DNA of 64,000 nucleotides from a virus. The stretch spans positions 1 to 64,000 of the IMG/VR virus record IMGVR_UViG_3300009506_000025; one strand, written 5' to 3'. This document shows, piece by piece, positions 4,442-25,624 of this stretch; the stretch's first letter is position 1; every line of letters starts with the position of its first letter. The notes under the pieces were generated by a model. That model searched no databases, was not told where the DNA came from, and worked only from the letters and a program-made list of their open reading frames with translations. Made by a program: the position numbers and the translations under genes.

Positions 4442-4444
4442 AAG

Positions 4445-6535: not shown

Positions 6536-6619
6536 ATGGCAAAGTTACTCGACTGGCTCACCGTTCTAGTTCTGCTCCTGGCGATTGGATGTGTATGGTT
6601 CCTCCTATTTCGAGGTTGA
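6536..6619 (+). CDS. 27-residue transmembrane peptide
   Basis: The ATG lies one base beyond the previous stop. The peptide (start MAKLLDWLTVLVLLLAIG) has one transmembrane helix and almost nothing else. It is too short for most gene callers. Position between two coding genes, a good start and a clean membrane helix are the support. Confidence 0.45.
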   Translation: MAKLLDWLTVLVLLLAIGCVWFLLFRG

Positions 6620-6625
6620 CGATGA

Positions 6626-7264: not shown

Positions 7265-7268
7265 ACAG

Positions 7269-7664: not shown

Positions 7665-7666
7665 CG

Positions 7667-8158: not shown

Positions 8159-8160
8159 TA

Positions 8161-9285
8161 ATGTACTTTCCGTCGTTCAATGAAATTCTGTCTGTCGCAT
8201 ACAGTCGTGGTGCAGCTTCTGAGGCACCTGGGCTGTGGAAGGGCCTCGTCGGTGCGTGGCCATTGCAGGAGGGCGGAGGGACAGCCGCATTTGATGTTAG
8301 CGGGTTCAGCAAGAATGGCACGCTGACGAACATGGAGCCGGCGACCGACTGGCAAGCCAGCCCCGTCGGTTATTGCCTGGAGTTTGACGGTAGTAACGAA
8401 TCGGTGTTGGCAGATGCAGTTACTCCCATCGGCACAGGAAGTTTTTCGGTAAGTGCTTGGGTGAACCTGGACGTTGGCGTTAGCAACGCTAGTGCGGCGA
8501 TAGTGTCTCAAGGAGACCTCGGCAGTGACGAGTGGATGTTCCGTGTCTCTGCTGCGGACAGTGCTAATGCTAAACTGCAACTATACGGTGCTGCTGGTCA
8601 AATAAACCCAACTCAGACTACTGGGGAGTTCGTCCAATACAAGGGTTCGTGGGTGCATGTCGTTGCCGTTAGAGATGCTCCAAGCACTGATGCAATCATT
8701 TATATCAACGGCGTAGAAGTTGGTAGAGATGACGTTGCATCGTATAATCTCTCGACCACTAAACAGATCCAGATCGGATGCGCCGATAGTACAGCGGGTC
8801 GTTGGTGGGAGGGGAAGATCACAAATGTTGCATTCTGGCATCGCACTATTCTACCTGGAGAAATCGTCGAACTCTACGTCGACCCCTGGGCGATGTATAG
8901 GCAGCGGAGACGGACGTCATTCCGGGGGGTAACGATCATTGAGGGGACAGTCTGCTGGGGGCACGATACTGCCGTCGAGGAAGACAACACCCGCGACTTT
9001 ACCGGGGACTGGACAGGCACAGGGTCGATTTCGGGTGCCGGTGACGCTGAACAGATTGATCTGGACGATGGAGAAACCATGGAGACCAGCCCGGTAGTTC
9101 ATACCGGCGCTGTCACCGTGACGATCCAAAAGAACAAATACGGCAGCGGCGATGCGGAGGTAGTGGTCAATTATCGCCACGGCGCAACGGTTGCCGCCTG
9201 CCAAGCGGCAGCATGGAACGAATACGCCGCTCCTTTCGTGTCCGCAGGTTACGTTCAGGTGCAGGTGGAGAACGAAGTTGCATGA
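8161..9285 (+). CDS. LamG / concanavalin A-like lectin-domain protein
   Basis: The product is 374 aa. Residues ~20-235 form a LamG_3-type jelly roll: [54 protein letters not shown], then IQIGC and [18 protein letters not shown]. Such domains bind glycans or proteins, and in phages usually sit in tail fibres or head decorations. After a basic linker (YRQRRRTSF) there is a second beta-rich domain (about 255-374). The last four bases overlap the start of the Thr/Ser/Pro-repeat protein, so the two are co-translated; they may work together as adhesin and glycosylated stalk. Confidence 0.8.
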
Positions 9286-12212
9286 GGGCTCGATCAACGC
9301 CGTACCGCTTCTGGCTCATAGCAGCACTCCTGCTTTCGGGAGTGCTGACGATGGCTAAGAATCTCAACGGCCTTACTCTCACGGCCCCTTCCAGCGATCC
9401 CAACATCCTGGTGGGCGAATCGTTCGATTGCACGCTTACTCCTTCGTTCAACGGGTCGGGAACTCCAAACCCATACACTCTACAGTGGGAGTGGAACGAG
9501 GGAGAGGGGGCCTATTCGGCAATCGGTACGACGCCGACGAACGGCCTCTACCACGCCGCCACGAACCCGCTAGTCAATATCCAAGTAGACGGTCCTTCTA
9601 CGCTTGTAGTCTATGGTGGCACTAGCGGCATCTTTCACGTCCGCGGGAATGGAAACAGCGGCAGCTACTACACGTCGGAGCAGCAGGTAACCGTTTCCAG
9701 CGGTTCTGCTACTCCGAGTTCCACGCCCTCCGCCACGCCTTCCGCGACTCCCAGCGGCACGCCTTCAGCTACACCGTCAGCCACTCCCTCTTCGACCCCC
9801 AGTGCGACCCCTTCGGCCACTCCAAGTGCCACCCCGTCCGCCACACCTAGCACCACGCCCACTCCCAGCTCAACCCCGTCGGCGACCCCAAGTTCAACAC
9901 CCTCGACAACGCCCACTCCCTCAAGTACACCCTCCGCCACACCTAGCGCCACACCTTCCACCACCCCGACGCCGTCGAGTACGCCTTCATCTACGCCCTC
10001 CGCTACGCCGAGTACGACACCAACTCCCTCTAGCACACCGAGTGCAACGCCTTCAGCCACGCCGAGCGCAACCCCGTCTTCGACTCCTAGTGCCACCCCG
10101 AGCGCAACCCCATCTGCAACTCCGAGCACCACGCCGACACCATCGAGTACGCCAAGTTCCACTCCATCGGCAACTCCCAGTACGACTCCGACCCCGAGTT
10201 CCACGCCGTCAGCGACGCCGAGCGCAACCCCCAGTACCACCCCGACGCCTTCTAGTACCCCGTCGGCCACCCCCTCGGCCACACCGTCGACGACCCCGAC
10301 GCCTTCGAGCACTCCAAGCGCTACCCCTTCAAGCACGAGGAGTTCCACTCCAAGCTCTACCCCGAGCACTACGCCAACTCCCACAATAACCGGTACGGGG
10401 ACAGTATCAGCTACACCCTCTTCTACGCCGAGTTCCACGCCGTCGACGACCCCGACAGGCACTCCAACTATCACCCCGACCGCTACGCCATCATCCACCC
10501 CTTCATCCACTCCCAGCAATACGCCCTCCACCACCCCTACCCCGTCTTCGACCCCCAGCGCGACACCCTCAGCAACCCCCAGCGCCACTCCCTCGGCCAC
10601 TCCAAGTGCCACCCCAAGCACAACCCCCACACCCAGTTCGACTCCTTCGGCCACTCCATCTTCGACGCCGTCTGCCACCCCAACCCCCAGTTCAACTCCG
10701 AGCGCCACGCCCTCTGCGACGCCCAGTACGACGCCGACACCGAGTTCCACTCCCTCTGCCACCCCCAGCAGTACACCATCCGGTGCCGCGTTGTCCGTAG
10801 ACGACATCGTTGTCACCTGGTCAACAGCGAGTGCCACGCCGAGTTCGACTCCCTCTAGTACGCCGAGCGCTACTCCCTCTAGCACCCCCTCCGCGACCCC
10901 CAGCACTACGCCGACGCCTTCCAGCACGCCGAGCAGCACGCCCTCCAGCACGCGCAGCTCGACTCCAAGTTCCACACCAAGTACGACCCCCACCCCGACA
11001 GTGACTGGAACGGGAACGGTATCGGCAACGCCGTCTTCTACTCCGAGTTCAACACCGTCCACTACCCCAACCGGAACCCCGACGCCGAGTAATACACCTT
11101 CGACTACGCCAACTCCCTCTTCAACTCCCAGCTCTACGCCGTCGGCAACGCCCTCGGCAACTCCCAGCGCGACACCTTCAGCGACCCCGTCGGCTACTCC
11201 GAGCGCGACACCTTCGACTACGCCGACACCCAGTAGCACCCCTTCCGCGACGCCATCAGCGACCCCGAGCACCACGCCAACGCCCTCCAGTACACCGTCG
11301 GCTACCCCTTCTGCGACGCCCTCCACGACACCGACCCCTAGCAGCACGCCCAGCGCCACTCCATCGGCCACCCCGTCAGGGACCCCTTCGTCGACCCCGA
11401 GTAGCACGCCAAGTAGCACGCCGAGCAACACACCCTCGACGACCCCCACGCCTTCGAGTACCCCCAGTGCGACGCCCTCGGCCACACCCTCGACCACCCC
11501 TACTCCATCGAGTACGCCGTCTTCCACTCCTAGTGCGACGCCTTCGACTACCCCAACGCCCTCCAGTACGCCCTCCAGCACGCGGAGTTCGACGCCCAGT
11601 TCAACTCCAAGTACAACACCTACTCCAACAATAACTGGCACCGGCACCGTATCCGCCACACCATCTTCCACTCCGAGCACGACCGGGACTCCAACCCTTA
11701 CCCCGACGGCAACTCCATCCTCGACTCCGTCCTCGACACCTAGCAATACTCCCTCGACAACACCAACGCCTTCTTCTACGCCGAGTGCTACACCCTCGGC
11801 TACTCCCTCCGGGACGCCCAGCAGCACAGCCTCTGCGACCCCGAGTAGTACGCCCAGTGCGACGCCAAGCAACACACCGTCGGCGACCCCCACTCCATCC
11901 TCAACGCCAAGCGCAACCCCGTCAGCCACTCCGAGCGCGACGCCGAGCAGCACGCCGTCTGCTACCCCAACCCCATCCAGTACACCGAGCGCGACGCCGT
12001 CGACGACGCCAACGCCGAGCAGCACGCCCTCATCTACACCCAGCGCGACACCCAGCAGCACCCCCAGCGCTACACCCTCAACGACCCCTACCCCATCCAG
12101 CACCCCCAGCTCCACTCCAAGTTCTACCGGCGCCGCCGCCAGTGCGGTTCCCATTGTCGGGAGCGGAGGAATCCACTCCCTTGTCGGAGGGAGACAGGTC
12201 ATAAATGGATGA
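9282..12212 (+). CDS. Secreted mucin-like protein: ~800 residues of Thr/Pro/Ser repeats
   Basis: The product is 976 aa from the ATGA overlap; a longer frame from 9213 lies inside the LamG gene. Residues 1-23 ([19 protein letters not shown]) are a signal peptide or anchor. Residues ~24-142 form a compact beta domain (Ig-like, with [10 protein letters not shown] and [11 protein letters not shown]). Residues ~143-950 are near-pure Thr-Pro-Ser repeats ([20 protein letters not shown]). A short break at ~503 reads [17 protein letters not shown]. The last ~29 residues ([15 protein letters not shown]) are not repetitive. No sortase motif, Cys or transmembrane anchor is visible at the C-terminus. The composition is that of an O-glycosylated stalk, and the next genes are glycosyltransferases. 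Confidence 0.85.
9706..12130 (+). repeat. Coding Thr-Pro-Ser repeat tract with higher-order periodicity
   Basis: The unit is three codons (ACN CCN AGY/TCN) with Ala, Ser or Thr in an extra variable position, so the peptide reads TPS-x. A longer block ([18 protein letters not shown] followed by [10 protein letters not shown]) recurs three times, near 10337, 10950 and 11583, about 615-630 bases apart. Synonymous codons are thoroughly mixed, so the peptide repeats far better than the DNA does. The opposite strand is also open over most of the tract because of the composition; that is not a gene. Confidence 0.9.
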
Positions 12213-12915
12213 TCTGACTGTGATCTACATCACCGATAGCGTGCTGGACCCCACGATAGCCCACGGGTGCAGGAAAATACTAGCCAGGGCCGCTGGAGAT
12301 CACCGAATCATAAGCGTATCGCAGGACTTCCTGGAATTTGGGGACAACCTCTGCGTGGGCCGGATCGGACGTTCGGTGTTATCGATGGAACAGCAGATCG
12401 AAGCAGGACTGGAAGCGGCCACCTCACGGTGGGTTGCGATCGCCGAACACGATTGCATCTACTCAGAGGAACATTTTCGTTTTCGGCCACCAGACGACCG
12501 GTTATTCTGGTACAACAGAAACGTCTGGATCTTGAGGACAGACATCCAACGGTTCTCCTACAGGGAGCGCAAGATTCAATCTCAGATGGTCTGCGACAGG
12601 AAGCTACTCCTATCGGCGACAAGGATGAAGCTGGAGGTGGTAGCCAATCCGGGCTGGGAAAAGATGCGTCCCATGGGAGAGCCGGGAGCGGCTGGGTACT
12701 ACAGGTCGCGCCAAAGGTGTAGAGGGGAGGAGCTGAAGCGAATTGTCGGAGAGTACGCTCTGCGATTTAGCTCGCAGCCATTTGGGACCGCAGTACCCAA
12801 TGTGGATATTTGGCACGGAGGCAATCTTAGGGGCAGGCGAACCGGACTAAATGGGCGCTATCGATTGGAACCTTGGGGAGAATACGCAGATATATGGAAG
12901 ACATTCAGAAGCTAA
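12205..12915 (+). CDS. Putative glycosyltransferase, EHD-motif family (copy 1)
   Basis: The product is 236 aa. It is related to 15403-16128: both open with a strand and a THNRG/TDSVL-like segment, then 'AVSQ/SVSQ ... WGD/FGDN', then an acidic-His motif (EHDCIY at about 76-81) and an aromatic HFRF...P...NRNVW block, and end with NVDIWHGGN. Such proteins are annotated as GT-A-fold glycosyltransferases in phages; EHD would replace the usual DxD. Substrate unknown. The start overlaps the end of the mucin-like gene by 8 bases, tying the island to that protein. Confidence 0.65.
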
Positions 12916-13475
12916 TCCATCGCAGGTTCAAGATAAAGAAGCGCAGCGACAATGTCGTGCGAGGTGCTCGCGGAGATAGAGTAACCCTCGCGGCCCTATG
13001 GGGAGAGGTCGGCCTGAATCGAGGGGTGGAGGTCGGCGTATGCAGGGGGACGTTCTCCAAGATTCTCTGCCTCAACAATCCAAACATAGAGCTGTACTCG
13101 ATTGATCCGTGGTTCACCGGAGGGCGGGTTGGGCATCGCCGCGAGAGACATATGCGGAGAGCCATAAAGAAGCTGGCTCCATTTGCAGTCACCATCATCC
13201 GCAAGACCAGTATGGAGGCACTAGCCGACTTCGAGGACGGTAGCCTCGATTTCGCATTCATCGACGGAAACCACACGTTCGACTACGTAGCCCCGGATAT
13301 CATCTTCTGGTCAAAGAAGGTACGTAGCGGGGGAATGATCGGGGTCCATGACTACCACCGGCACCGCTGGGGTGGCGTGATCGAAGCCGTGAACGCCTAC
13401 ACGTTCTGCCACAACATCAACCCCTGGTACGTCACTTGGGAGGCCACGCCCACGGCGTTTTGGGTCAAGCCATGA
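12894..13475 (+). CDS. Class I SAM-dependent methyltransferase (Methyltransf_24 type)
   Basis: An ATG at 12894 fits better than the TTG at 12873, since it leaves a 22-base overlap and a normal N-terminus (193 aa). VEVGVCRGTFSKIL (about 43-56) is motif I, LYSIDPW (about 66-72) the second strand, LDFAFIDGNHTFDYV (about 120-134) motif II, and GGMIGVHDYH (about 147-156) the strand after it. This matches the small O-methyltransferases found in polysaccharide clusters. Probably it methylates a sugar. It resembles 24296-24841. Confidence 0.75.
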   Translation: MEDIQKLIHRRFKIKKRSDNVVRGARGDRVTLAALWGEVGLNRGVEVGVCRGTFSKILCLNNPNIELYSIDPWFTGGRVGHRRERHMRRAIKKLAPFAVTIIRKTSMEALADFEDGSLDFAFIDGNHTFDYVAPDIIFWSKKVRSGGMIGVHDYHRHRWGGVIEAVNAYTFCHNINPWYVTWEATPTAFWVKP

Positions 13476-14164
13476 AGCTCTCGATCATCATCCCGGTCCT
13501 CAACAGCCACGAGATCGTCCGGAGGCAGATGGTGCATTACTCCGCGATGCCTCTTCCTCCAGACGTGGAGGTGATCCTGGTGGACGATGGGAGTGATCCG
13601 CCTATCCCCCAATCCATGGATCGATACATCAACATCCTCCGAACGCACGATACCCGCCCCTGGACCCAGCCCAAGGCCAGGAACATTGGCGCCCGTGCGG
13701 CCTGCGGCGAGTTCCTGCTGTTCACGGACATCGACCACATCGTACCGGAAGACAGCGTGAAGTGGTGCATGGATTGTCAATACGATTTTTCCAAGTTCCG
13801 ACGCTACCTGGGCGTCCTGGACGAGTTCGGCAGGATCACCCAGGATCGACAGGTGCTGGAGCAATACGGGGTCGACAGGAAGAAAGGGCTCCGCGTCTCT
13901 TGCCATACCCTCAGCATGGTTGTCCGCCGGGACCTGTTCTGGGAGACGGGGGGATACCGAGAGAAACTCGGCAAGCATCCAACCCACGATGATGGACATA
14001 TGAAGAAGATGCTGGGGCGTCGAGTTCGTAGAGGGGAAATCACTCGCTGTCCCGACGGACACGGGGAGGACGAGCGTCCAGTGATCTACGTCTTCCCAAA
14101 CGGGAGGTTTGGCGGCAGCGAAAACCATAATCCCATGGGCCTGTTCCACAGCTTGCAGCGATGA
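13472..14164 (+). CDS. Family 2 glycosyltransferase (GT-A fold), copy 1 of a duplicated pair
   Basis: The product is 230 aa: LSIIIPVLNSHEIVRRQ at the N-terminus, VEVILVDDGSDPP (DD nucleotide-binding motif near residue 34), then LFTDIDHIVPE (DxD near residue 90), GGYREKLGKH and the late GENPMG-like block. The same order and the SHEIVRRQ string recur in 14729-15406. Nucleotide-sugar donor and acceptor are unknown. ATGA overlaps the preceding methyltransferase stop. Confidence 0.82.
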   Translation: MKLSIIIPVLNSHEIVRRQMVHYSAMPLPPDVEVILVDDGSDPPIPQSMDRYINILRTHDTRPWTQPKARNIGARAACGEFLLFTDIDHIVPEDSVKWCMDCQYDFSKFRRYLGVLDEFGRITQDRQVLEQYGVDRKKGLRVSCHTLSMVVRRDLFWETGGYREKLGKHPTHDDGHMKKMLGRRVRRGEITRCPDGHGEDERPVIYVFPNGRFGGSENHNPMGLFHSLQR

Positions 14165-14763
14165 AGATACTACCCCCAGCCAGCTATGCCGCATACCGCG
14201 CCGGCCAGCGGAAAAAGTACCGCAAAAAGCGGAACCACGTCTGGATCAATCGTCGAGAGTGGGACTTTCTGGCTGCTACGATTCGCGAATGTGCCAAAGA
14301 GCTACGCCAGGGGATCTGCCACGGCGTCCGGAAGGGGATCGAGTGCGACAGGCTATCGGAACTCCTGGAGATCCCCGTGATCGGGACGGAGATCGGGAAC
14401 CCTCACTGGCACAGGGTAGTAGCGAATTGGGATTTTCATAAGACAAAGCCTGAGTGGAACGAGCAGTTTTCGTTTGTGTACTCCAACGCCCTGGACCACT
14501 CCTACGACCCGAGCCTGGCCCTGGCGACCTGGGCCACGCAGCTTCACGTCGGCGGGATCATGGTCCTGCACTGGGCGACGGATGATTTGGAGCCCAGCAG
14601 CCCGGAGGACTGCTTCGGCGCGACCCTGGAGGAGTACGCAGAATTGGTAGGTGTGCATTGTAGCGAGGTGCGGCTTATACCCTCTCCCGTCAAAAGGGGA
14701 AACAGGACCCTTGTCGTTGGAACGCGCAATGAGACTCTCCATCGTGACCCCCGTGTTGGATAG
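14161..14763 (+). CDS. Methyltransferase-like hypothetical protein
   Basis: The product is 200 aa. The N-terminal 60 residues are strongly basic (RAGQRKKYRKKRNHVWINRREW), then FSFVYSNALDHSYDPSLALATW and GGIMVLHWATDD, resembling the second half of a class I methyltransferase (motif II-like 'DALDH' and the post-motif strand). I cannot see a GxGxG loop, although ELLEIPVIGTEIG (about 60-72) may take its place. Perhaps a divergent SAM enzyme acting with the flanking GT2 pair. Start overlaps previous stop (ATGA). Confidence 0.5.
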   Translation: MKILPPASYAAYRAGQRKKYRKKRNHVWINRREWDFLAATIRECAKELRQGICHGVRKGIECDRLSELLEIPVIGTEIGNPHWHRVVANWDFHKTKPEWNEQFSFVYSNALDHSYDPSLALATWATQLHVGGIMVLHWATDDLEPSSPEDCFGATLEEYAELVGVHCSEVRLIPSPVKRGNRTLVVGTRNETLHRDPRVG

Positions 14764-15406
14764 CCACGAGATCGTCCGTAGGCAGTTGCTCCACTACAAT
14801 CGGATGGATCTGCCGGACTCCGTGGAAATCCTCTTCATGGACGATGGGAGCGATCCGCCGCTGGAAGGGAACGGGCGGGTTACGGTTCACCGGACGAACG
14901 ACACGCGCAAATGGACGGAGCACATTGCCCGCAACAAGGGGGCACAACTAGCCCGCGGCGAATACCTGCTGATGATCGACGTCGACTACATCGTACCCGA
15001 GCAGACCATCCTCCGGGCCATCGCCTTCGACGGGGATCGCATGGACTTCGATAGGAGATTTGGGGTTCTCGATAGGGAGGGGAAGGTCGATACCAGCATC
15101 CAAACTCTTGCCGTGTGGGGCCTGCTTCCGAAGTGGCAACGCAGGCGGACCCCCAACCACCGAAGTCAGTACCTAATGCGAAAGTCGCTGTTTGAGAAGA
15201 TCGGCGGTTATCGCGAGGATCGCTGGGGTAAGGCTCACCCGAAGGGAGGCGGGGCGGGGCAGAAGTTCTTCCTGAATTGGCGGAGACAGGAGATCCCACT
15301 GCCGGAGGAACGGCCCATCGTCTACATGTTTCCCAACGGGAAGTATTGCGGAGATCTGGACTACAACCCGTTTGGATACTTTCACAAGCTGACACGCAAA
15401 GCATGA
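14729..15406 (+). CDS. Family 2 glycosyltransferase, copy 2 of the duplicated pair
   Basis: The product is 225 aa, a close paralogue of 13472-14164: LSIVTPVLDSHEIVRRQ, ILFMDDGSDPP, LMIDVDYIVPE (DxD near residue 92), GGYRED, then RPIVYMFPNGKYCGD matching RPVIYVFPNGRFGG in the other copy. I chose the ATG at 14729, 35 bases inside the previous gene, because it aligns with the start of its paralogue. Tandem copies with diverged middles suggest two different linkages in one glycan. Confidence 0.82.
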   Translation: MRLSIVTPVLDSHEIVRRQLLHYNRMDLPDSVEILFMDDGSDPPLEGNGRVTVHRTNDTRKWTEHIARNKGAQLARGEYLLMIDVDYIVPEQTILRAIAFDGDRMDFDRRFGVLDREGKVDTSIQTLAVWGLLPKWQRRRTPNHRSQYLMRKSLFEKIGGYREDRWGKAHPKGGGAGQKFFLNWRRQEIPLPEERPIVYMFPNGKYCGDLDYNPFGYFHKLTRKA

Positions 15407-16128
15407 CCGGAGGCATCGTCTACTACACGCACAACCGGGGTGACCCCATGATCCTCGCTGCCTGCCGCAGGCAGATCGACCGAGCAAGAGGAGAGATTCC
15501 TGTGGTAGCTGTATCGCAGAATCCGCTGGATTGGGGCGATCAGAATATCGTGATGAAGGGGATTGGGAGGACGGACCTGGCCATGTTCCGCCAGCAACTC
15601 GCGGGGCTGGAGGCCGTCGGAACCGACTACGTGTTTTTCTGCGAGCACGACGTACTCTACCACCCGAGCCACTTTACCTTTGTTCCCCCCACAGATGACA
15701 AATACTACTTCAACTGGAACGTCTGGGCCGTGGATGCTGACACGGGCCAAGCGCTTCACTACGACGGGATGCGGATGACCTCGGGGGTCGTGGCCTATCG
15801 CGATATCCTGATCGAGCACTACAGGAAGAAGATCGAGATAACGAGGAGGCGAGGAAAGTTCTCCCGGCAGCTCCTTGGATATGAGCCCGGTAAGCCGAAG
15901 TCCCGGGAGATGCTGGGGAACTACAGGCAGGGGAAGTTCTACTCCACACTGCCCAACATCGACATCAAGCACGACCGCAACATTACCCGGAAGCGATTCG
16001 CCCCAAGCGATTACCGGAACTGGACGCACATAATGGACTCGTGGACCCTGGCCGATTCCGTTCCCTACTGGGGAACGACCAAGGGTAGGTTCAGGGAATT
16101 CCTGGCAGAGGTGGCGAATGGTAATTGA
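15403..16128 (+). CDS. Putative glycosyltransferase, EHD-motif family (copy 2)
   Basis: The product is 241 aa, related to 12205-12915. It shows IVYYTHNRG, VVAVSQNPLDWGDQNI, FFCEHDVLYHPSHF (EHD near residue 76), YYFNWNVWAVD, and the late PNIDIKHDRNITRKRF. The shared features span the whole length, so it is a true paralogue. I start it at the ATGA overlap at 15403, as the longer frame would run inside the GT2 gene. Sugar and acceptor unknown. Confidence 0.68.
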   Translation: MTGGIVYYTHNRGDPMILAACRRQIDRARGEIPVVAVSQNPLDWGDQNIVMKGIGRTDLAMFRQQLAGLEAVGTDYVFFCEHDVLYHPSHFTFVPPTDDKYYFNWNVWAVDADTGQALHYDGMRMTSGVVAYRDILIEHYRKKIEITRRRGKFSRQLLGYEPGKPKSREMLGNYRQGKFYSTLPNIDIKHDRNITRKRFAPSDYRNWTHIMDSWTLADSVPYWGTTKGRFREFLAEVANGN

Positions 16129-16933
16129 CTGCTTTCCGTTCTTCAACGAACTGGACCTGCTGGAGATCCGCCTCCACGAGCTGGCTCCCGTGGTGGACGT
16201 GTTCGTTCTCTCCGAGGCGACGCTGACGTTCACCGGGAAGCCAAAGCCCCTCTACTACCACGACAACCGGAGTCGCTTCAGGGAGTTCTCTGATCGCATC
16301 CACCACCTGGTCGTCTCCGATTACACGGGGATGAAGCTCAATGACACCCGCTCCATGGACCGGGAGCAGAAGCAACGGGGGCTGGACTGGATGGTGGAAC
16401 GCTTCAAGCCGGGCTTGCAGGATCTCGTGATCATGGCCGACGTGGACGAGATTCCCAGGGCCAGCACGATTGCCCAGGCCGAGAAGGAGACGGGGTGGAT
16501 TGCGGCGATGATTGAGATGCAGTTGTACTACTACTACATGAACTGCCGCGCCAAGGGGCGACCGGGGTCGTGGAGAAACCCCCGCCTGCTTCGCGTAAAC
16601 AGGGGAGAGAGGATTCACTACAACAGCACCCGGAAGGGGTGGCGAGACAAGGACTACTGGGACGCTGGGTGGCACTTCAGCTTTCTCCACGGGTCCGTCG
16701 CCGACATCCAGTACAAGGTCTCCTCGTACACCCACGCGCCGGAGTTCGACAACGACCATTACATGGCGCCTGAGCATATCAGCGACTGTATCGAACAGGG
16801 GAGGGATATCTTCCGCAGGAAGAGATACCAGTTTGAGTACCTCGATGACTTGGGATTTCTGCCCGAGTACGTGCAGAACCATCTCGATAGGTTTGCCAAG
16901 TACATTCACCAGCCATGCGAGACCTTAGCGTAA
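16118..16933 (+). CDS. Family 17 glycosyltransferase (GT17-like)
   Basis: The product is 271 aa, the whole length of a GT17 domain. IDCFPFFNELDLLEIRL starts the domain as in beta-1,4-N-acetylglucosaminyltransferase III-type proteins, then VFVLSEATLTFTGKPKPL, DLVIMADVDEIPR (DxD near residue 110), an aromatic LYYYYMN strand and GWHFSFLHGS. The eukaryotic founder adds GlcNAc to mannose in N-glycans; bacterial and phage relatives have unknown acceptors. It overlaps its neighbours on both sides, so it is part of the coupled cluster. Confidence 0.8.
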   Translation: MVIDCFPFFNELDLLEIRLHELAPVVDVFVLSEATLTFTGKPKPLYYHDNRSRFREFSDRIHHLVVSDYTGMKLNDTRSMDREQKQRGLDWMVERFKPGLQDLVIMADVDEIPRASTIAQAEKETGWIAAMIEMQLYYYYMNCRAKGRPGSWRNPRLLRVNRGERIHYNSTRKGWRDKDYWDAGWHFSFLHGSVADIQYKVSSYTHAPEFDNDHYMAPEHISDCIEQGRDIFRRKRYQFEYLDDLGFLPEYVQNHLDRFAKYIHQPCETLA

Positions 16934-17844
16934 TCATCCCCGCCCGCAACGAGATGTTCCTGAACAGAACGGTCCAGGATGTCCTCGACCATGCGCGGGC
17001 CGATACCGAGGTGATCGTAGTCCTCGATGGCTACTGGCCTGATCCACCGTTGCCGGACAACGACCGGGTGATCGTACTCCACCACACCACGGCGATCGGA
17101 CAGAGGGCCGCCACCAACCAGGGGGCCAGGGTCTCGCAGGCGAAGTACGTGATGAAGCTCGACGCCCACTGCTCGCTGGACGAGGGCTTCGACGTGAAGC
17201 TCATGGAGGACTGCCAGCCGGACTGGACGATGATCCCGAGCATGTATAACTTCCACGCCTTTGATTGGAGATGTGTGGCCTGCGGGAACCAGACCTATCA
17301 AGGATTCAAGCCGTCGCTGTGCTCCAAGTGCAAGGCAACCGAGTTCGAGATGGTGGTGACCTGGGAGCCCCGCTGGAACCGAAAGACGGTCTCCTGGCGG
17401 TTCGACAAGAACATGCAGTTCCAGTATTGGCGGAAACACTGCAAGAGGGCCGAGGTCAAGGGCGACCTGATCGAGACGATGTGCTTCATCGGGGCCTGCA
17501 TGTTGATGGAGAGGAAAAGGTTCTGGGACCTCGGGGGGATGGACGAGGCTCACGGAAGCTGGGGCCAGTTCGGCACGGAGATCTCCTGCAAGTCCTGGCT
17601 CTCCGGGGGAAAGCTGATCACGAGCCAGAAGACCTGGTTTGCCCACCTCTTCCGCACCGGGAACTTCAGCCACAATGGCCATTCTACGTTTCCCTACCCG
17701 CTGAGCCAGCAGGCCATTGATCGGGCCAGGGCATACTCCAAGGACCTCTGGCTGAACGACAAGTGGCCCGGAGCGATATTGCCGCTTTCCTGGCTAGTTG
17801 ATAGATTTAAGCCAGTTCCCGATTGGCATGAGGGGGCGAGATGA
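16915..17844 (+). CDS. GT2/GT27-like glycosyltransferase with inserted zinc ribbon; polypeptide GalNAc-transferase-like motifs
   Basis: The product is 309 aa. Residues 4-14 (LSVIIPARNEM) and IVVLDGYWPD are GT-A elements. KLDAHCSLDEGF has the D-x-H metal motif (Asp83, His85) typical of polypeptide GalNAc-transferases rather than plain GT2. GGMDEAHGSWGQFGTEIS and CKSWLSGGKL (about 208-234) match the 'GG-D-x-x-x-x-WG-x-x-x-E-x-S-x-x-x-W-x-x-GG' block of that family. A four-Cys zinc ribbon (Cys120, 123, 136, 139) is inserted between. No ricin domain follows. The enzyme may transfer a sugar to Ser/Thr of the nearby mucin-like protein; that is inference. Confidence 0.72.
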   Translation: MRDLSVIIPARNEMFLNRTVQDVLDHARADTEVIVVLDGYWPDPPLPDNDRVIVLHHTTAIGQRAATNQGARVSQAKYVMKLDAHCSLDEGFDVKLMEDCQPDWTMIPSMYNFHAFDWRCVACGNQTYQGFKPSLCSKCKATEFEMVVTWEPRWNRKTVSWRFDKNMQFQYWRKHCKRAEVKGDLIETMCFIGACMLMERKRFWDLGGMDEAHGSWGQFGTEISCKSWLSGGKLITSQKTWFAHLFRTGNFSHNGHSTFPYPLSQQAIDRARAYSKDLWLNDKWPGAILPLSWLVDRFKPVPDWHEGAR

Positions 17845-18056
17845 AGACCTGCAAGACCTGTATCTGGTGGGACACGAATCATCCGAGACTTTTGTTCGCA
17901 CCGAAAGTGTCTGGTATGCACTGTCCTGGCTTCTGCCGGAAACACAAACCCGGGGCCTACTCGGTGGCGACCGGCGAACACGGAAATTTCGCGATTGGAA
18001 TCCAGCCCATAACCGACGGCGATGAGGGCTGCGCTGAACACAGGGAGTCGATCTAA
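17841..18056 (+). CDS. Cys-rich small protein, 71 aa
   Basis: ATGA overlap with the preceding gene. The first residues, KTCKTCIWWD, give a CxxC; HCPGFCRKHKPG (around residue 27) and a final DEGCAEHRE give three more Cys and two His. The pattern suggests one or two structural zinc sites or disulfides. Function unknown. It starts a block of four structural-type or small genes that interrupts the glycosyltransferase island. Confidence 0.6.
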   Translation: MKTCKTCIWWDTNHPRLLFAPKVSGMHCPGFCRKHKPGAYSVATGEHGNFAIGIQPITDGDEGCAEHRESI

Positions 18057-18676
18057 TGGGTTGTCCTACCTCCTGCGTACTCGGTGAAGATCTGGTCTTC
18101 TCGGTCACAACCCACGATCCGGATACCGGCGTGCTGACCGACGCGGATTCTGTCCCCAGCTACCGGATCTACGAGGACGAAACCACCGCGGCAATCCTCA
18201 ATGGCAGCATGGCAAAGCTCGACGACGTAAACACGACGGGCTTCTATAGCGAGTTGATTGCCGTTACGGCAGGCAACGGATTCGAGGCCGGGAAGAATTA
18301 CACGGTCTACATCGAGGCGACGGTTGACTCCGACACCGGCGGTATCAGCTACGCCTTCAAGGTAACACCCGCGGTCCCAGATGCGAACGCGGTTCAGATC
18401 AATGACAGCGCAGCGGCAGCCGCGCAGCTCGCGCTCTCCGCTATCGGTATCGTGTCCGGCGCGGCTATCCTGGGGACCTTGTCCACGACCCAGATGACGA
18501 CAGACCTCACCGAAGCGACGGACGATCATTACATCGGCGGGGTGATCGTCTGGACCAGTGGGGCGCTGGCAGGACAGCGGAGCGACGTGACGGACTACGA
18601 CGGTGCAGTCAAGATGCTCACCTACACGGCGACTACCGACGCCCCCTCGGCGGCGGATACCTTCGTGATTATCTGA
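18056..18676 (+). CDS. Ig-like phage appendage protein
   Basis: The product is 206 aa and starts in the TAATG overlap. The N-terminal ~110 residues (GEDLVFSVTTHDPDTG, DADSVPSYRIYEDET, GFYSELIAVTAGNGF, NYTVYIEATVD) look like the beta-sandwich domain seen at the front of many phage tail and baseplate proteins. A helical linker and a second small beta domain (GGVIVWTSGALAGQRSDVTD) follow, which resembles a trimerising or tip domain. Why a virion-type gene sits inside a sugar-modification cluster is not clear; perhaps it is itself modified. Confidence 0.6.
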   Translation: MGCPTSCVLGEDLVFSVTTHDPDTGVLTDADSVPSYRIYEDETTAAILNGSMAKLDDVNTTGFYSELIAVTAGNGFEAGKNYTVYIEATVDSDTGGISYAFKVTPAVPDANAVQINDSAAAAAQLALSAIGIVSGAAILGTLSTTQMTTDLTEATDDHYIGGVIVWTSGALAGQRSDVTDYDGAVKMLTYTATTDAPSAADTFVII

Positions 18677-19412: not shown

Positions 19413-20255
19413 ATGCTAAGCCACTCGATCATCATCCCGCACCGGGACTACTCCAAGTACCTAGAGATGTGCCTCTGGTCGATCCGGTGCTCCGCGCACT
19501 GCTGCGACGTCGATGACTACGAGGTCCTGGTAGTAGACCAGGGCTCGAAGCTGCCCCCGACCCTCTACGATCCGCACGATCGCTTGATCAAGCAGCCCCG
19601 CGCGCCAGCCTATAGGTACATCCGCTACTTCAACAAGCCGATGGCACTGAACGAGGGGATCAGGCAGGCCAAGGGCGAGATCCTGACCTTCCTCGACGCG
19701 GACGCGATCGTTGGCGAACTCTGGATGGATTGCGTGAGCTGGTTGAAGGGAGAGAATGACCGTAACGCCATGACAAAACTTTGCTACCGCGTCCGCTATC
19801 TCCCCGAGACCGCATTGATTCGGATGGCGGCCCTGGAGCCGGACGCTAGGGAGAAGATGGTCTACGGTGAACGGGGCTTCTTTGACTGCTACCGAGACTT
19901 CCAGCGGGCGGTGGAGTGCTACGGGGAGCCCGACAAGGACCCGCACAACAATCCTCCAGGCAGGAAGTGGGACGGGGATGAGCCACCGGAGCATCCGATC
20001 TTCGGGAACTCGCAGTTTTCGATCCATCGCGACCAGCTCGGGAAGATCCGGTTCGACGAGAAGTACGTCGGCCGCGGGTTCGAGGACATCGCCATGAACC
20101 GGGAGATCTGGAGACGGAAGGGGGACAACTACCGAGCGGGGATCGTGCTCGATTCAAGGCACGCGATGTTCCACGTCCGCAACCCCAGCCAGGGGGAGAA
20201 GTGGGGGGCAGGCAAGCAGAACACCGCCAATCTCAGGAGGTACAACAAGACATGA
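19413..20255 (+). CDS. Family 2 glycosyltransferase
   Basis: The product is 280 aa. SIIIPHRDYSKYLEMCL and VLVVDQGSK open the nucleotide-binding half; ILTFLDADAIV (near residue 90) is the DxD. The end carries GRGFEDIAMNREIWRRKG, the acidic acceptor-side block of GT2. An upstream ATG at 19408 closes after three codons, so 19413 is the start. It restarts the enzyme genes after the four-gene structural block and overlaps the epimerase gene by four bases. Confidence 0.8.
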   Translation: MLSHSIIIPHRDYSKYLEMCLWSIRCSAHCCDVDDYEVLVVDQGSKLPPTLYDPHDRLIKQPRAPAYRYIRYFNKPMALNEGIRQAKGEILTFLDADAIVGELWMDCVSWLKGENDRNAMTKLCYRVRYLPETALIRMAALEPDAREKMVYGERGFFDCYRDFQRAVECYGEPDKDPHNNPPGRKWDGDEPPEHPIFGNSQFSIHRDQLGKIRFDEKYVGRGFEDIAMNREIWRRKGDNYRAGIVLDSRHAMFHVRNPSQGEKWGAGKQNTANLRRYNKT

Positions 20256-21253
20256 GAGTCCTGGTTGCGGGGGCTGGAGGGTTCATCGGGGGGCACTTGG
20301 CCAGGGCGCTGGTCAAGGCTGGGCATGAAGTCCACGCCGTCGACATCAAGCCCTACGAGGAATGGTGGCAAGGGGCGGGGGCCGGAGGTCCCGCTTCCCT
20401 GTTCTTCTCGACTAACATTGCCTGCGAGAGAGAGGCAACATACCACTGCACAGGGATGGATTGGGTCTTCAATCTGGCCTGCGATATGGGGGGGATCGAG
20501 TTTATCGAGGGAAACAAGGCCCGCTGCATGGACTCGGTTCTGATCAACGCCAACCTGCTACGGGCTGCCAGGAAGAACAGGGTTAAGCGATACCTCTACA
20601 CCTCCTCGGCCTGCGTCTACCGGGCGGATCGGCAGGACGGCCCGGATCAGCCGCCGCTGAAGGAGGAGGATGCTTACCCGGCGATGCCCGAGGATGGCTA
20701 TGGCTGGGAGAAACTCTTTTCGGAGCGACACTGCCGGCACTACATGGAGGACTACGGCCTGGACTGCCGCGTGGTCCGGCTGCACAACGTATACGGCCCC
20801 CACGGGTCCTGGTGCGATGGACGCGAGAAGGCCCCGGCGGCGATTTGCCGCAAGGTGGCCGAGGCGAGGCTCCAGGGAGACGGGGAATTTATGATCTACG
20901 GGGATGGGACCCGGACCAGGACCTTCATGTGGATCGAAGACTGTGTCGAGGGGCTCCAGAGGATCATGGAGTCGGAGATCCGCCAACCGATCAACCTGGG
21001 TATCCAGGACGAGGTGGTCACGATCAACCGCCTGGTGGAACTCGTCCAAGAGGTGGCAGGAACGGACCTGGAGGTGAACCACGACCTCTCCCGGGCCCAG
21101 GGCGTCTACGGCCGATCTAGCGACAATACCATGATTCGCAGAGAGCTAGACTGGGAGCCGAGGACCCCGTTGCTGAGCGGCCTCGCCCGTACCTATCCCT
21201 GGATCGAGGACCAAGTGAGGAAGCGAGAATGCTTGAGTACCCCCACTCGCTGA
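20252..21253 (+). CDS. GDP-mannose 3,5-epimerase homologue (extended SDR)
   Basis: The product is 333 aa, the size of the family. GAGGFIGG (7-14) is the NAD-binding glycine motif. ACDMGG (77-80), SSACVY with catalytic-type Cys121, YGWEK with Tyr150 and Lys154, and REKAPAA with Lys193 match the residues that do catalysis in plant GDP-mannose 3,5-epimerase. The plant enzyme makes GDP-L-galactose (and L-gulose) from GDP-mannose. A phage copy suggests that an L-sugar donor is made for the glycosyltransferases around it. The product could also be another GDP-hexose. Confidence 0.82.
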   Translation: MRVLVAGAGGFIGGHLARALVKAGHEVHAVDIKPYEEWWQGAGAGGPASLFFSTNIACEREATYHCTGMDWVFNLACDMGGIEFIEGNKARCMDSVLINANLLRAARKNRVKRYLYTSSACVYRADRQDGPDQPPLKEEDAYPAMPEDGYGWEKLFSERHCRHYMEDYGLDCRVVRLHNVYGPHGSWCDGREKAPAAICRKVAEARLQGDGEFMIYGDGTRTRTFMWIEDCVEGLQRIMESEIRQPINLGIQDEVVTINRLVELVQEVAGTDLEVNHDLSRAQGVYGRSSDNTMIRRELDWEPRTPLLSGLARTYPWIEDQVRKRECLSTPTR

Positions 21254-21876
21254 CAGCGGAGGAGATCCGGGACCTCGTGGGCGTGGCCCCCCTGATGCTG
21301 GAGATCGGCTGCCACGACGGCTCGGACACGGCGAAGTTTCTCAGGGCGATGCCCGAGGCGATCATCCACTGCTTCGAGCCCTACGAGAACCCGAGGCGGA
21401 GATTCCGTGAGAGCGTCGGGACCTCCAAGCGGGTCCGTCTCTATCCGGTGGCGGTCTGTGACATCGATGGTCAAGTTGAGTTCTACGCCTCGACCGGCGC
21501 CGCCGGTGGCCGGGAGGACTGGGACTACTCCGGGAGCATCAACCGGCCGACGGGCCACCTCAAGCGGTCCCCGGAGATCGCCTTCAAGCCCCCGATCACG
21601 GTCGAAGGGATGCGACTGGACACCTGGTTCGAGGAGCACTCGCTGCCGAAGATCGACTTCATCTGGGCCGATGTCCAGGGTGCCCAACGGAAGGTGATCG
21701 AGGGTGGACAGCGAGCCCTACTGGCGACCCGGTATCTCTATATCGAGAGGCACCGATGGCCGTTGTACCAGGACGAGCCCACCCCGGACGAGCTGCTCAG
21801 ACTCCTACCGGGATTCAACCCCCTGGCGGAGTACGCCCGAGAGAACGTACTCCTGGAAAACAGGTACGCCAAGTGA
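21229..21876 (+). CDS. FkbM-family methyltransferase (1 of 3)
   Basis: The product is 215 aa. PLMLEIGCHDGSDT (about 22-35) is motif I, IIHCFEPYENPR (about 45-56) the second strand with the acidic residue, VRLYPVAVCDIDG, and KIDFIWADVQGAQRKVIEGG (about 141-160) is the FkbM signature with D-V-Q-G. The family O-methylates sugars and other secondary metabolites. It overlaps the epimerase end by 25 bases and the next gene by four. Confidence 0.8.
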   Translation: MLEYPHSLTAEEIRDLVGVAPLMLEIGCHDGSDTAKFLRAMPEAIIHCFEPYENPRRRFRESVGTSKRVRLYPVAVCDIDGQVEFYASTGAAGGREDWDYSGSINRPTGHLKRSPEIAFKPPITVEGMRLDTWFEEHSLPKIDFIWADVQGAQRKVIEGGQRALLATRYLYIERHRWPLYQDEPTPDELLRLLPGFNPLAEYARENVLLENRYAK

Positions 21877-22772
21877 GCTGCGAGTTTCACAGAGCGGCGG
21901 ATACGCTGCGGAAGATCAACAGCCTGGGCGTGGCCGGACGCGCGAAGGATGCCTCGGACAGCATCAAGGTGATCGACTCCCTGCTCTCGACCTACAACCA
22001 GGCGAAGTCAGCTAACCACCTGGCAAAGTTTCAACCGGCGATGGACGGGTTCCTAGCAGCCACACGCAAGTCGATGACGGAACTCGTCTACGCGGTGGAA
22101 CAGATGGCCGAGATCGTCGGTCCCCAAAACTTCAACGCCTCGCCCCCGGCGTTGGAGTCGATGGCCGCCATGCGTAGCCGCAACTTCCCGGAGGCACCCC
22201 AGGTGGGCGCCCTGCACGGGGAGGATGCGATTATAAGGGATCTGCTTCCGGAGTCGGTCGGCCACTACGTCGACATCGGGGCCTGGCGCCCAGTAGAGCA
22301 GTCGAACACCTGGGCCCTCTACCAGCGGGGATGGAGGGGGCTGTTGATCGAACCGGTCCCCCAGGCTTGGGGCGCTATTTTGCATCAGCGACCAGGGGAT
22401 TTTCTGGCGCCCTGGGCAGTGAGCGACACCGCAGGACCGACCCGCATGTGGGTCAACGGCCCCCTGAGCACGATCCGGCCGGACAAGGCCCTGGCGGAGT
22501 CGAGTGAGATCGTGGTGCAAGGGCTTCCCTTGAATCAGATCTTGAAATTCTTTCCCACCATCCGTGATCAGTGCCTGATGTGCAGCATCGACGTCGAAGG
22601 CGCTGAAGAGGCGATCCTGAAATCTACCGACTGGAAGAAGTTCTCGCCCAGGATTCTAGTGGTGGAGTTCATCCACGGAAACCAAGACTCCATCAAGGCG
22701 ATCCTGACCGCAGCGGGTTACCGGAAGCAGGCCGACACCCGCAACAACCTGATCTTCAGCCGGAAGGAATAG
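21873..22772 (+). CDS. FkbM-family methyltransferase with helical N-terminal extension (2 of 3)
   Basis: The product is 299 aa from the GTG at the GTGA overlap. Residues 1-115 are an extra, mostly helical domain (about SCEFHRAADTLRKI... to EQMAEIVG). The C-terminal part is the FkbM core: VGHYVDIGAWRPVEQSNT, GLLIEPVPQAW, LAPWAVSDTAG, CSIDVEGAEEAILKSTDW and ILVVEFIHGN. The extension is not seen in the other two FkbM genes here and may serve oligomerisation or recruit another island enzyme. Confidence 0.78.
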   Translation: MSCEFHRAADTLRKINSLGVAGRAKDASDSIKVIDSLLSTYNQAKSANHLAKFQPAMDGFLAATRKSMTELVYAVEQMAEIVGPQNFNASPPALESMAAMRSRNFPEAPQVGALHGEDAIIRDLLPESVGHYVDIGAWRPVEQSNTWALYQRGWRGLLIEPVPQAWGAILHQRPGDFLAPWAVSDTAGPTRMWVNGPLSTIRPDKALAESSEIVVQGLPLNQILKFFPTIRDQCLMCSIDVEGAEEAILKSTDWKKFSPRILVVEFIHGNQDSIKAILTAAGYRKQADTRNNLIFSRKE

Positions 22773-22775
22773 CTG

Positions 22776-23534
22776 GTGAGTACGATCCGCTGGCGAGAGA
22801 TCGAATGGTGGTACGTCAACCTCTCCACCCGCCCCGACCGCCGGGAGCACGCCGAGGAGCAATTCGCCCGCCATGGCCTCCAGGCCCGGCGCTTCGAGGC
22901 GTACACACCGGACCAGTGGAATGGGCCCGGCGCGGACGTCGCCATGATGCGTCCGACTCCCGGGGCGATCGGTTGCTTTATGTCCCAACGCGAGGTCACA
23001 CGAACTGTGGAGGGGACAGATAGGGTGGTGGCCGTCTGCGAGGACGACGTGCTGTTCTGCGACGATCTCTGCGATCGCCTCCAGTACATCGAGGAGAACT
23101 TCCATAAACCCTGGGACGTCTTCTGGCTGGGATCGACCTACCACGTCAACCCGCCAGTCTGGCACACCAAGGATCTGGGAAGGGATTTCTGCCAGACAGA
23201 CGTGAAACATATCCACCGGGCCTACGGGCTCTGGGGGACCTACGCCTACCTGGTCAACGGCCGTAGTGTCTCCAGGATCATGGAACTCTTCCAGCGGGAC
23301 CTGCCAAAGGCCCGGGGGATCGACGATCTCTACATCATGCTGGAGCCGGAGATCAACAGCTACTGCTTCACCCCCGGGATGGCGTTTCAGATCGACGGGA
23401 AGACGAACATCGGCGTAGGGGGAGACGGGATGACCATCTTCTCGAACTTCCACAAGCTGGGGCCCTATGTCTTCACGAAGCGGCTGGAGGATTTCGACTA
23501 CGACTCGTTCAATTGGGCGGAGGGGAAGCGATGA
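22776..23534 (+). CDS. Family 25 glycosyltransferase (LOS/collagen-type)
   Basis: The product is 252 aa with a GTG start at 22776. YVNLSTRPDRREHAEEQF and ARRFEAYTPDQW are the first GT25 block, GAIGCFMSQREVTR the second, VVAVCEDDVLFCDDL (E-D-D near 90) the metal site, and LWGTYAYLVNGRSVSRIM the third. GT25 includes lipooligosaccharide galactosyltransferases and collagen hydroxylysine galactosyltransferases. It sits between two FkbM genes. Confidence 0.8.
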   Translation: MSTIRWREIEWWYVNLSTRPDRREHAEEQFARHGLQARRFEAYTPDQWNGPGADVAMMRPTPGAIGCFMSQREVTRTVEGTDRVVAVCEDDVLFCDDLCDRLQYIEENFHKPWDVFWLGSTYHVNPPVWHTKDLGRDFCQTDVKHIHRAYGLWGTYAYLVNGRSVSRIMELFQRDLPKARGIDDLYIMLEPEINSYCFTPGMAFQIDGKTNIGVGGDGMTIFSNFHKLGPYVFTKRLEDFDYDSFNWAEGKR

Positions 23535-24292
23535 GCGAACTCACCGAGAAGGAATTTCACGATCAGGTCGAGGACACCTACCGGAGGATGTACCTTGAGC
23601 CCGATGCGCCCGCCCCATCGATGACGGCCGCGGAGTACCGCGGGCTCTACGGCGAGGTGGTGACCAACGACTGCTACGGACTGGGGGCGATAGAGTTTCA
23701 GCCCGAGGTGATCTTCGATCTAGGGGCGAACGTGGGGGTGTTTACCAACTTTGCACGCCGGCTTTTTCCCGAGGCAACGATCATAGCCGTCGAGCCCGAC
23801 GAGCAGAACATGCAGAACATGAGCTACCTGGCAACGGATCACAGCCAGACGGTGTTCATGGAGTACGCAATCGGACTTGGTCTGGTCTATTCTGCCGGAA
23901 GCCTAGCGAACGGAGCCCACCGTTCCTATATCTGCGATGGATCAGAGTACCTCCGACCATTTACCCAGGAGGGCGGGCGGTACAAGCTCTCCGATGTTCC
24001 TGCAATCACCCTCTCCGCACTGATGGACCTTTTTCCGATCCAGCCGCGTTTCATCAAGGTGGATATTGAAGGAGGGGAGGCGGCGATTTTCGAGCACGAG
24101 AAATCGATGCTGGCGCTCGCCGAAACGGAGGCATTTGCAATAGAGCTACACGATCGGTGGTGGGCGACCAGACTACAATCGCTGCTATCTGAGACCCACT
24201 CTGCCGAGTGGGAGCCTCGGACCTGCGTGCTGAAGGCAAGGAAGAGATCGCCGGCGACACCCCCATCGCGAGGAAGACCAACTCAGGAGTAA
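23531..24292 (+). CDS. FkbM-family methyltransferase (3 of 3)
   Basis: The product is 253 aa from the ATG overlapping the previous stop (the 23513 start would precede it). EVIFDLGANVGVFTNFARRL (about 56-75), IIAVEPDEQNMQNM, FIKVDIEGGEAAIFEHE and FAIELHDRWW form a textbook FkbM core. The last ~30 residues are basic and Pro-rich, perhaps disordered. Same general role as the other two copies. Confidence 0.82.
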   Translation: MSELTEKEFHDQVEDTYRRMYLEPDAPAPSMTAAEYRGLYGEVVTNDCYGLGAIEFQPEVIFDLGANVGVFTNFARRLFPEATIIAVEPDEQNMQNMSYLATDHSQTVFMEYAIGLGLVYSAGSLANGAHRSYICDGSEYLRPFTQEGGRYKLSDVPAITLSALMDLFPIQPRFIKVDIEGGEAAIFEHEKSMLALAETEAFAIELHDRWWATRLQSLLSETHSAEWEPRTCVLKARKRSPATPPSRGRPTQE

Positions 24293-24295
24293 CCC

Positions 24296-24841
24296 GTGGA
24301 AAAGATCACGAGCAGGGCACACTTCTACAAGCTCCTCGACAGACCGGAGTTGAAGCAGGCGGCGGCGGAGGTCGGGGTAGCTGAAGGCAGGTATTCCCGC
24401 GAGATCCTTTCGTGGGGAATAGGTAAGCTCTACCTTGTAGACCTGTGGGAGGAGATCGGGGGGATGAAGGGGTGCCCAAGCACCGGGCAACACCAGCAGA
24501 ACTACGACTCCTGCCTCCGTATCGTCGAACAATTTCCTGGTCGGGTGATCCTCCTGAAGGGATGGTCCTGGGAGCAGGCCAAGAATGTTCCCGACAATTC
24601 GCTGGGCCTGGTCCATCTCGACGCGCACCACTACTACGAGTCGGCGGTCAAAGACCTGGCGGCATGGTGGCCGAAGCTCCTGCCCGGGGGTGTGATGTCG
24701 GGCCATGATTATCTGGCCCACGAGTACACGGTCAGACAGGCAGTGGACGAGTTTGCTACAGCAAGAAAGATCGAGGTCCTTGTTGATAGGCCAGACGATC
24801 CCCGCAATGCCTCGTTCTATTTCAGAAAGCCCCCGGCATGA
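24296..24841 (+). CDS. Class I SAM-dependent methyltransferase
   Basis: GTG start, 181 aa. AAEVGVAEGRYSREILSWG (about 21-39) is motif I, LYLVDLWEE the second strand, LGLVHLDAHHYYESAVKDL motif II, and GGVMSGHDYL (about 139-148) the strand after it. It resembles 12894-13475 in motif order and in the HDY element, so these are two diverged copies. Likely a sugar O-methyltransferase. Confidence 0.75.
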   Translation: MEKITSRAHFYKLLDRPELKQAAAEVGVAEGRYSREILSWGIGKLYLVDLWEEIGGMKGCPSTGQHQQNYDSCLRIVEQFPGRVILLKGWSWEQAKNVPDNSLGLVHLDAHHYYESAVKDLAAWWPKLLPGGVMSGHDYLAHEYTVRQAVDEFATARKIEVLVDRPDDPRNASFYFRKPPA

Positions 24842-25614
24842 ACATCAAGGTCCTCACGGGCTACCAGGGCGATTGCCTCTATCGCGAGCTGACGCTGGCG
24901 AACCTTGGAGAATACTGCGCCAGGTGGGGCCACACGTTCGTATCTCGATTCGGCGACTGGATGGACGAGCGTGGCGAGATGGAGGAAACGGCCCGGAGGT
25001 TTTTGGAGAGATCCGGAGGAAGGATCTCGGAAGAGGAATACGCCATCCGTCCAGAGCACGCGACCCGCAAGATGACCCTTACCTGGGCCAAGCATCTACT
25101 GATCCGGGAGGAACTAGGCGGCTGCGACTGGCTCCTGTGGCTGGACGCCGACTGCAAGATTATGGATATGCGGGTGTCCCTGGATTCGCTGATAGACAGC
25201 GACCACGATCTTGTCCTTTCTGGAATGTTTCCCGAGTGCTGGGCGGCCAATACCAAGGCAGTGATGTGCAAGGAAGCGCCAGAGGGGCACGGGGTCGTCT
25301 CGCTTGGGATCATGTTGATGAGGAACTGTACCTGGACTTGGGATCTTCTGGACGCCTGGTGGGCGTCGCGCAACAAGGACTGGGCGAGAGAGAAACCCTA
25401 CGAGTGCATGTACCATGGAGACAATCAGTGGTTCTCGTGCCATTTCATGCTCAAGGCCCCCGGCCGGGATCGAGTAAAGGTCGTGCCCAAGGAGACGATG
25501 GGTTGGTGCCACCACAAGCCAGACCTCCAGCAGTTCATAATCCACCTCTACGGGAGCATCGAGGTGAATCGGCTGGCCATGCTCCGGGACTTGGAACGCT
25601 TTGTGAAACGATAG
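24838..25614 (+). CDS. GT34-like glycosyltransferase (GMA12/MNN10 type)
   Basis: The product is 258 aa. CDWLLWLDADCKIMDMR (about 96-112) contains the DxD in the context of fungal and plant alpha-galactosyl, mannosyl and xylosyltransferases. VVSLGIMLMRNCTWTWDLLD and YHGDNQWFSCHFM follow in the family order. The start overlaps the previous stop (ATGA). The donor would be UDP-Gal, UDP-Xyl or GDP-Man; it cannot be told apart here. Confidence 0.72.
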   Translation: MNIKVLTGYQGDCLYRELTLANLGEYCARWGHTFVSRFGDWMDERGEMEETARRFLERSGGRISEEEYAIRPEHATRKMTLTWAKHLLIREELGGCDWLLWLDADCKIMDMRVSLDSLIDSDHDLVLSGMFPECWAANTKAVMCKEAPEGHGVVSLGIMLMRNCTWTWDLLDAWWASRNKDWAREKPYECMYHGDNQWFSCHFMLKAPGRDRVKVVPKETMGWCHHKPDLQQFIIHLYGSIEVNRLAMLRDLERFVKR

Positions 25615-25624
25615 GTGGATCATA

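Follow-up and report, generated by a model that had tools for sequence, protein, structure and literature searches.

The product of a phage gene composed almost entirely of Thr-Pro-Ser repeats is, judging from its sequence and setting, probably the acceptor of a mucin-type O-glycosylation system that the phage itself carries, and probably a virion fiber. The window (the whole stretch of DNA analyzed, 64,000 nucleotides with a GC content of 0.61, from an IMG/VR record of 72,807 bases) is phage DNA, as matches to a major head protein and a terminase show. We also lean, a little less firmly, toward a broader proposal, in which mobile, phage-restricted mucin-type O-glycosylation, consisting of GT27-like initiating enzymes and cognate Ser/Thr-repeat fiber proteins, occurs widely among uncultivated phages but not in the cultured-phage records searched.

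Read from the ATG at 9351, the repeat protein has 953 residues, comprising an N-terminal domain, a repeat of 808 residues, and a C terminus of 27 residues (Table 1). The repeat contains 255 Thr, 241 Ser, 201 Pro, and 74 Ala, which together make up 95% of it, along with five charged residues (three Arg and two Asp) and no Cys; the description in a first-pass annotation of this DNA, a near-pure TPS repeat of ~800 residues that is almost uncharged and lacks Cys, is thus accurate. Six consecutive TPSx units occur 30 times in the window and never in 100 shuffles. The 59 copies of TPSATPS each have a different DNA sequence, their third codon positions are 24–28% identical (that is, random), and their pairwise identity is not above that of shuffled codons. 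Serine is encoded by both TCN and AGY codons. The random third positions, together with the two types of serine codon, indicate that selection holds the repeat at the protein level, and the window protein thus has the long, Ser/Thr/Pro-rich tandem repeat, maintained as protein, that characterizes mucin-like domains. The random third positions also rule out a DNA satellite as its origin, and a chance or antisense ORF is ruled out by the pattern statistics, the N-terminal homologue, and the conserved C-terminal tag.

Table 1. Features of the repeat gene and its surroundings in the window
Feature	Position	Strand	Evidence or remark
LamG/concanavalin-like lectin gene, tail/fiber type, upstream neighbor	8161..9285	+	PF13385, 8.5e-23
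Repeat gene, open frame	9282..12212	+	ends ...GGRQVING*
In-frame stretch earlier read as signal peptide	9282..9350	+	probably untranslated or non-functional; no counterpart in L198 homologue
N-terminal domain of repeat protein, Ig-like (inferred)	9351..9704	+	33% identity, 3e-20, to L198 2096-2530
Thr-Pro-Ser repeat, 808 aa, putative O-glycosylation substrate	9705..12128	+	composition, synonymous diversity, pattern count
Conserved C-terminal tag (I/V)PI(I/V)xxxGI(H/N)SxxxGxx(I/V)ING*	12129..12212	+	common to L139, L148, L189, L201
HDxY-family GT-A-fold glycosyltransferase	12205..12915	+	starts 8 bases inside repeat gene; AlphaFold model
Methyltransf_24-type methyltransferase	12894..13475	+	PF13578, 1.9e-17; alignment, 45-54% identity
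GT2a glycosyltransferase	13472..14164	+	PF00535; alignment with homologues
Gene of unassigned family, methyltransferase-like by eye	14161..14763	+	no Pfam match
Second GT2a paralogue, start near 14729	14651..15406	+	PF00535; alignment with homologues
Second HDxY-family glycosyltransferase	15277..16128	+	HDxY profile match
GT17 glycosyltransferase	16118..16933	+	PF04724, 8.5e-41
GT2b, GT27-like enzyme related to polypeptide GalNAc-transferases	16915..17844	+	PDB profile, fold, motifs
Tail-assembly-like gene, end of core cassette	18056..18676	+	phrog_778, 4.9e-5
Accessory glycan genes	19413..29184	+	Pfam

The same annotation had placed a signal peptide at the start of the open frame and had proposed that the protein is secreted, a reading that is probably wrong. 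The in-frame stretch ahead of Met 9351 is hydrophobic (12-mer mean hydropathy of 2.45). The homologue in the viral locus L198 opens with MTATLNG, which aligns with Met 9351, directly after the stop codon of the preceding gene, and that gene is LamG-like, as in the window. Moreover, a hydrophobic N terminus is found in none of the 60 related repeat ORFs with complete starts. For these two reasons, ATG 9351 is the likelier start, and the ATGA overlap with the LamG gene is therefore probably unused. The protein thus appears to lack the signal peptide by which mucins are secreted; synthesis in the cytoplasm, in the manner of virion proteins, is the likelier route, and the absence of signal peptides is as expected for proteins of this kind. 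The N-terminal domain of the window protein has no match in Pfam or PHROG, and direct scans for relatives of this domain or of the terminase returned no useful match. Across the repeat proteins, the N-terminal domains vary widely and mostly lack a match to known virion families, so that placement on the virion rests on the neighborhood, namely the LamG and tail-like genes. One such domain, MATFELKxxLPKSTQDELDRI..., is common to L186, L207, L209, L213, L214, L223, and L228; with it begin many of the Ser-repeat ORFs that immediately precede a GT27-like gene. The C-terminal tag comes after differing N-terminal domains in the window protein and the four others that share it; a stricter, exact form of the pattern matched only L139 and L148 among the viral contigs scanned. 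Our guess is that the tag serves in fiber assembly or attachment.

The putative initiating enzyme is GT2b. Searched as a single sequence against the PDB, it matches polypeptide GalNAc-transferases first (6.9e-8), these are again best with a small profile (5.5e-9), and a 45-row profile finds GalNAc-T1 best (6.3e-15), with 58.8 bits versus 33.6 for GalT1. The other GT2 enzyme of the cassette, GT2a, by contrast matches generic GT2 enzymes rather than GalNAc-transferases. The AlphaFold model of GT2b has a pLDDT of 91.7, and among the PDB matches listed for its fold, all 50 are GalNAc-transferases (best 5e-16, TM up to 0.68); among viral models, the best match is A0A516LS96 (4.9e-20). In both sequence and fold, then, GT2b lies nearer the GalNAc-transferases than other GT-A enzymes. 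Asp-83, His-85, and His-244 (D83, H85, and H244) are present in 45 of 45 aligned rows and line up with the DAH and GHVFR motifs of GalNAc-T1; we take them to be the Mn ligands, the DxH and distal His of GT27 enzymes. The DxH, WGxxGxE, and HxFR motifs are invariant in the same rows. The donor-site motif WGGEN of GT27 reads WGQxGxE in GT2b, and the residue opposite the Glu of WGGE varies among M, F, V, Y, and Q in the 45-row alignment. Because the counterpart of this Glu is not conserved, UDP-GalNAc may not be the donor, and we therefore call the enzyme GT27-like rather than a member of GT27. The ricin-type C-terminal lectin domain that is usual, if not universal, in GT27 is absent from GT2b, which at 309 residues ends after the catalytic domain, and homologues carry an HDxY glycosyltransferase domain in its place. 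The enzyme also has a Cys4 insert (C120, C123, C136, and C139). By sequence and model, GT2b is a phage-restricted enzyme resembling the animal initiators of mucin O-glycosylation, with a putative donor and acceptor.

The linked neighbors claimed for the repeat gene, a LamG gene before it and a glycosyltransferase gene after it, stand except for the ATGA overlap discussed above. The adjoining downstream gene is not the GT27-like one, however; it encodes a GT-A-type enzyme with no Pfam match, and the GT27-like gene lies 4.7 kb, or seven genes, from the repeat gene. The model of the adjoining enzyme (pLDDT 95) matches GT-A structures such as SpsA and WrtF in the PDB, with the PBCV-1 glycosyltransferase structure 2p6w among the weaker matches; no Pfam family covers this HDxY enzyme. 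Used as a query, its gene found one relative, at 36% identity, in viral contigs and none in cultured phages. A single protein combines a GT27-like with an HDxY domain in 39 loci, and the HDxY family of the fusion partner includes the window gene that abuts the repeat ORF. The accessory genes encode two GT2 enzymes, an epimerase/GDP-Man dehydratase-like protein, three FkbM methyltransferases, GT25, GT34, Methyltransf_24, a sulfotransferase-like protein, and weak GT11-like and further GT2-like matches. The GT11-like gene (27069-28001; E 0.09) has an IHLRRGD-type motif and may encode a divergent fucosyltransferase.

Similar cassettes occur in other phages. An initial repeat pattern, which retrieved mostly non-homologous TPTPTP linkers, was replaced by a TPSx pattern with mixed serine codons, and this gave 26 stretches among the viral contigs. 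True TPSS repeats are present in four of the records (L133, L139, L144, and L148), each of which also carries GT2 genes and a GT27-like gene. Thus, the counterexample that the first-pass annotation had named, homologues without linked glycosyltransferases, did not appear among the four other TPSS-repeat phages found. The shared order resembles that of the window (repeat gene, Methyltransf_24, GT2a, and GT2b), except that no Methyltransf_24 gene was recognized in L133 and that the repeat gene of L144 comes after GT2b. Between the window and these phages, GT2b is 63–66% identical, Methyltransf_24 45–54%, and GT2a about 45%. In L152 and L155, a homologue of the tail-assembly-like gene comes after the cassette; identity is 47–54% in two loci. 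This core is common to phages whose GC content ranges from 0.43 to 0.61 and whose neighboring genes differ, and from that range the cassette seems to have been exchanged between phages. In L155, third-codon GC is 0.21–0.26 in the portal and head genes (1-3807) versus ~0.5–0.7 in the cassette and tail genes (3971-15562), reflecting either recent transfer or a chimeric contig. In L151, a TPS-repeat phage, a gene that by eye resembles B12-binding radical SAM proteins (11181-12383) lies between GT2a and GT2b.

The GT2b profile finds 77 loci in viral contigs, a single locus in GTDB (one genome per species), in a Sedimentisphaerales MAG, and matches in 2 of 298 genomes of the class of that MAG (E<=1e-20); in 50,697 records of cultured phages there is no match. 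One terminase family is matched by 17 of 50 of the virus records with GT2b; in three of these matches (G373, G379, and G400, the records of L190, L198, and L226) there are in-frame TGA/TAA codons, which could mean introns, frameshifts, or another genetic code.

For linkage, we counted non-redundant loci of at least 10 kb and called an ORF Ser/Thr-rich if at least 60 residues fell in windows with at least 42% Ser plus Thr and low entropy, on the same strand; phage loci extending 10 kb to either side of a P22-like coat gene served as controls. Such an ORF is present in 53 of 60 GT27-like loci versus 2 of 42 controls (P=1e-18), where the 53 becomes 52 if L179-L181, one non-redundant locus whose near-identical rich ORFs look like antisense artifacts, is excluded, and where both control matches lie on the minus strand and are probably antisense artifacts too. 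With at least 150 rich residues required, the counts are 47 of 60 and 0 of 42. In 29 of 78 loci (L179 and L181 included), no more than 400 bases separate the end of the nearest repeat ORF from a GT27-like gene downstream of it, and in 14 the two abut or overlap; many loci have two GT27-like copies, the abutting one often being the more divergent paralogue. The search for repeat ORFs came up empty in 17 of the 78 loci, which contig ends explain for some, though not for L195 and L206 (>14 kb). The loci nearest the window have TPSx-type repeats and the others SPSxSxS types, and the median Thr share of Ser plus Thr is 0.12 in unfused versus 0.03 in GT27-HDxY-fused loci (P=7e-6, uncorrected for relatedness). 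Comparative genomics thus strongly supports the predicted pairing of a dense O-glycosylation target with its own enzymes.

We infer the acceptor, the donor sugar, the order of steps, and the presence on the virion as follows. A modular protein, with an Ig-like N-terminal domain, a Ser/Thr/Pro stalk of ~800 residues, and a C-terminal tag, would be made in the cytoplasm, where the GT27-like enzyme would add the first sugar to Ser and Thr of the repeat. The HDxY, GT2, GT17, and other glycosyltransferases would then lengthen the chains, and the methyltransferases and sulfotransferase-like enzyme would cap them. The product would most likely be a stiff, glycan-coated virion fiber or stalk, serving as a shield or in carbohydrate binding. 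Phages with the cassette would then probably build their own sugar-coated fibers.

Other explanations have to be weighed against this scheme. It is possible, though unlikely, that the repeat is an unmodified linker or tail-fiber stalk, disordered or polyproline-like, and that the glycosyltransferases act on DNA, on surface glycans of the host, or on other proteins of the virion. Many phage proteins have TP-rich linkers although no such enzymes accompany them, the GT27-like gene is found in 0 of 49 virus records with TPTP-type repeats, and modification of DNA and of host glycans by phage glycosyltransferases is established (discussed in PMC12619734). But the repeats that go with the GT27-like family are Ser/Thr-rich rather than TPTP, the GT27-like and repeat genes are often immediately adjacent, and the structural relatives of the enzyme glycosylate Ser and Thr of peptides; further, a non-exhaustive scan of window genes found none for DNA hypermodification. 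We regard as very doubtful that the protein forms a glycosylated, mucin-like surface or secreted coat on the infected cell, during infection or lysogeny. Such a coat would suit the hydrophobic stretch ahead of Met 9351, and a serine resolvase/recombinase gene (50406-51362, minus strand; PF00239, 1.1e-24) hints at a temperate phage, but that stretch is missing in the L198 homologue and all 60 related ORFs. Least credible is that the two genes are mere neighbors in a variable fiber or cargo region with no enzyme–substrate relation, because, even though the N-terminal domains vary and the genes sit among tail genes, the coat-gene controls lack such repeats and repeat composition tracks enzyme type.

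The glycosylated virion fiber that we favor has parallels in several known systems. Most known cases of mucin-type O-glycosylation by polypeptide GalNAc-transferases come from eukaryotes. The animal and Toxoplasma systems (GalNAc-transferases of CAZy family GT27, and mucins) share with the phage system a sequence- and fold-related enzyme with DxH and HxFR motifs and, putatively, Ser/Thr/Pro tandem-repeat acceptors. The phage enzyme, whose activity is predicted, differs in being presumably cytoplasmic, in the donor-site motif, lectin domain, and Cys4 insert described above, and in its frequent fusion to a second GT-A domain. Serine-rich repeat glycoproteins of Gram-positive bacteria have long alternating-Ser repeats and linked cytoplasmic glycosyltransferases (GtfA/B, SecA2). 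The window repeat is likewise long and linked to glycosyltransferases, but the repeat ORFs here lack signal peptides, the candidate initiator is a GT27-like GT-A enzyme, and the genes are those of phages. Chlorovirus PBCV-1, like the phage as predicted here, encodes its own virion glycosylation, but it is a eukaryotic virus in which the capsid protein, not a Ser/Thr repeat, is modified, and its capsid-protein glycans are N-linked. In mycobacteriophages, phage-encoded glycosyltransferases are thought to modify virion proteins (Freeman et al. 2023, cited in PMC12619734); as that citing account presents it, the C termini of capsid and tail-tube proteins are modified, whereas here a dedicated mucin-like repeat protein would be paired with a GT27-like enzyme. 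Phage virion glycosylation and eukaryotic mucin-type O-glycosylation are thus both already known, and among the open-licence papers searched, we found neither their combination nor any phage mucin-like or GT27 system.

If the proposal is correct, a phage-only branch of the enzyme family, tied to mucin-like proteins that dozens of uncultivated phages encode, would bring phages within the range of this chemistry, and many low-complexity phage ORFs might acquire a possible role. The cytoplasmic, lectin-free enzyme could be of use for synthetic mucin production in bacteria, and the system would offer testable ideas on phage glycan shields and carbohydrate adhesion.

Two other features of the window are worth recording. 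Amid the tail genes, 6626-7264 matches FeeM N-acyl amino acid synthase (PF21926, 3.7e-26), which is unusual for a phage. Near the right end lie a (CAAG)8 tetranucleotide run (62964-62996) and a set of 10-base repeats (63448-63545).
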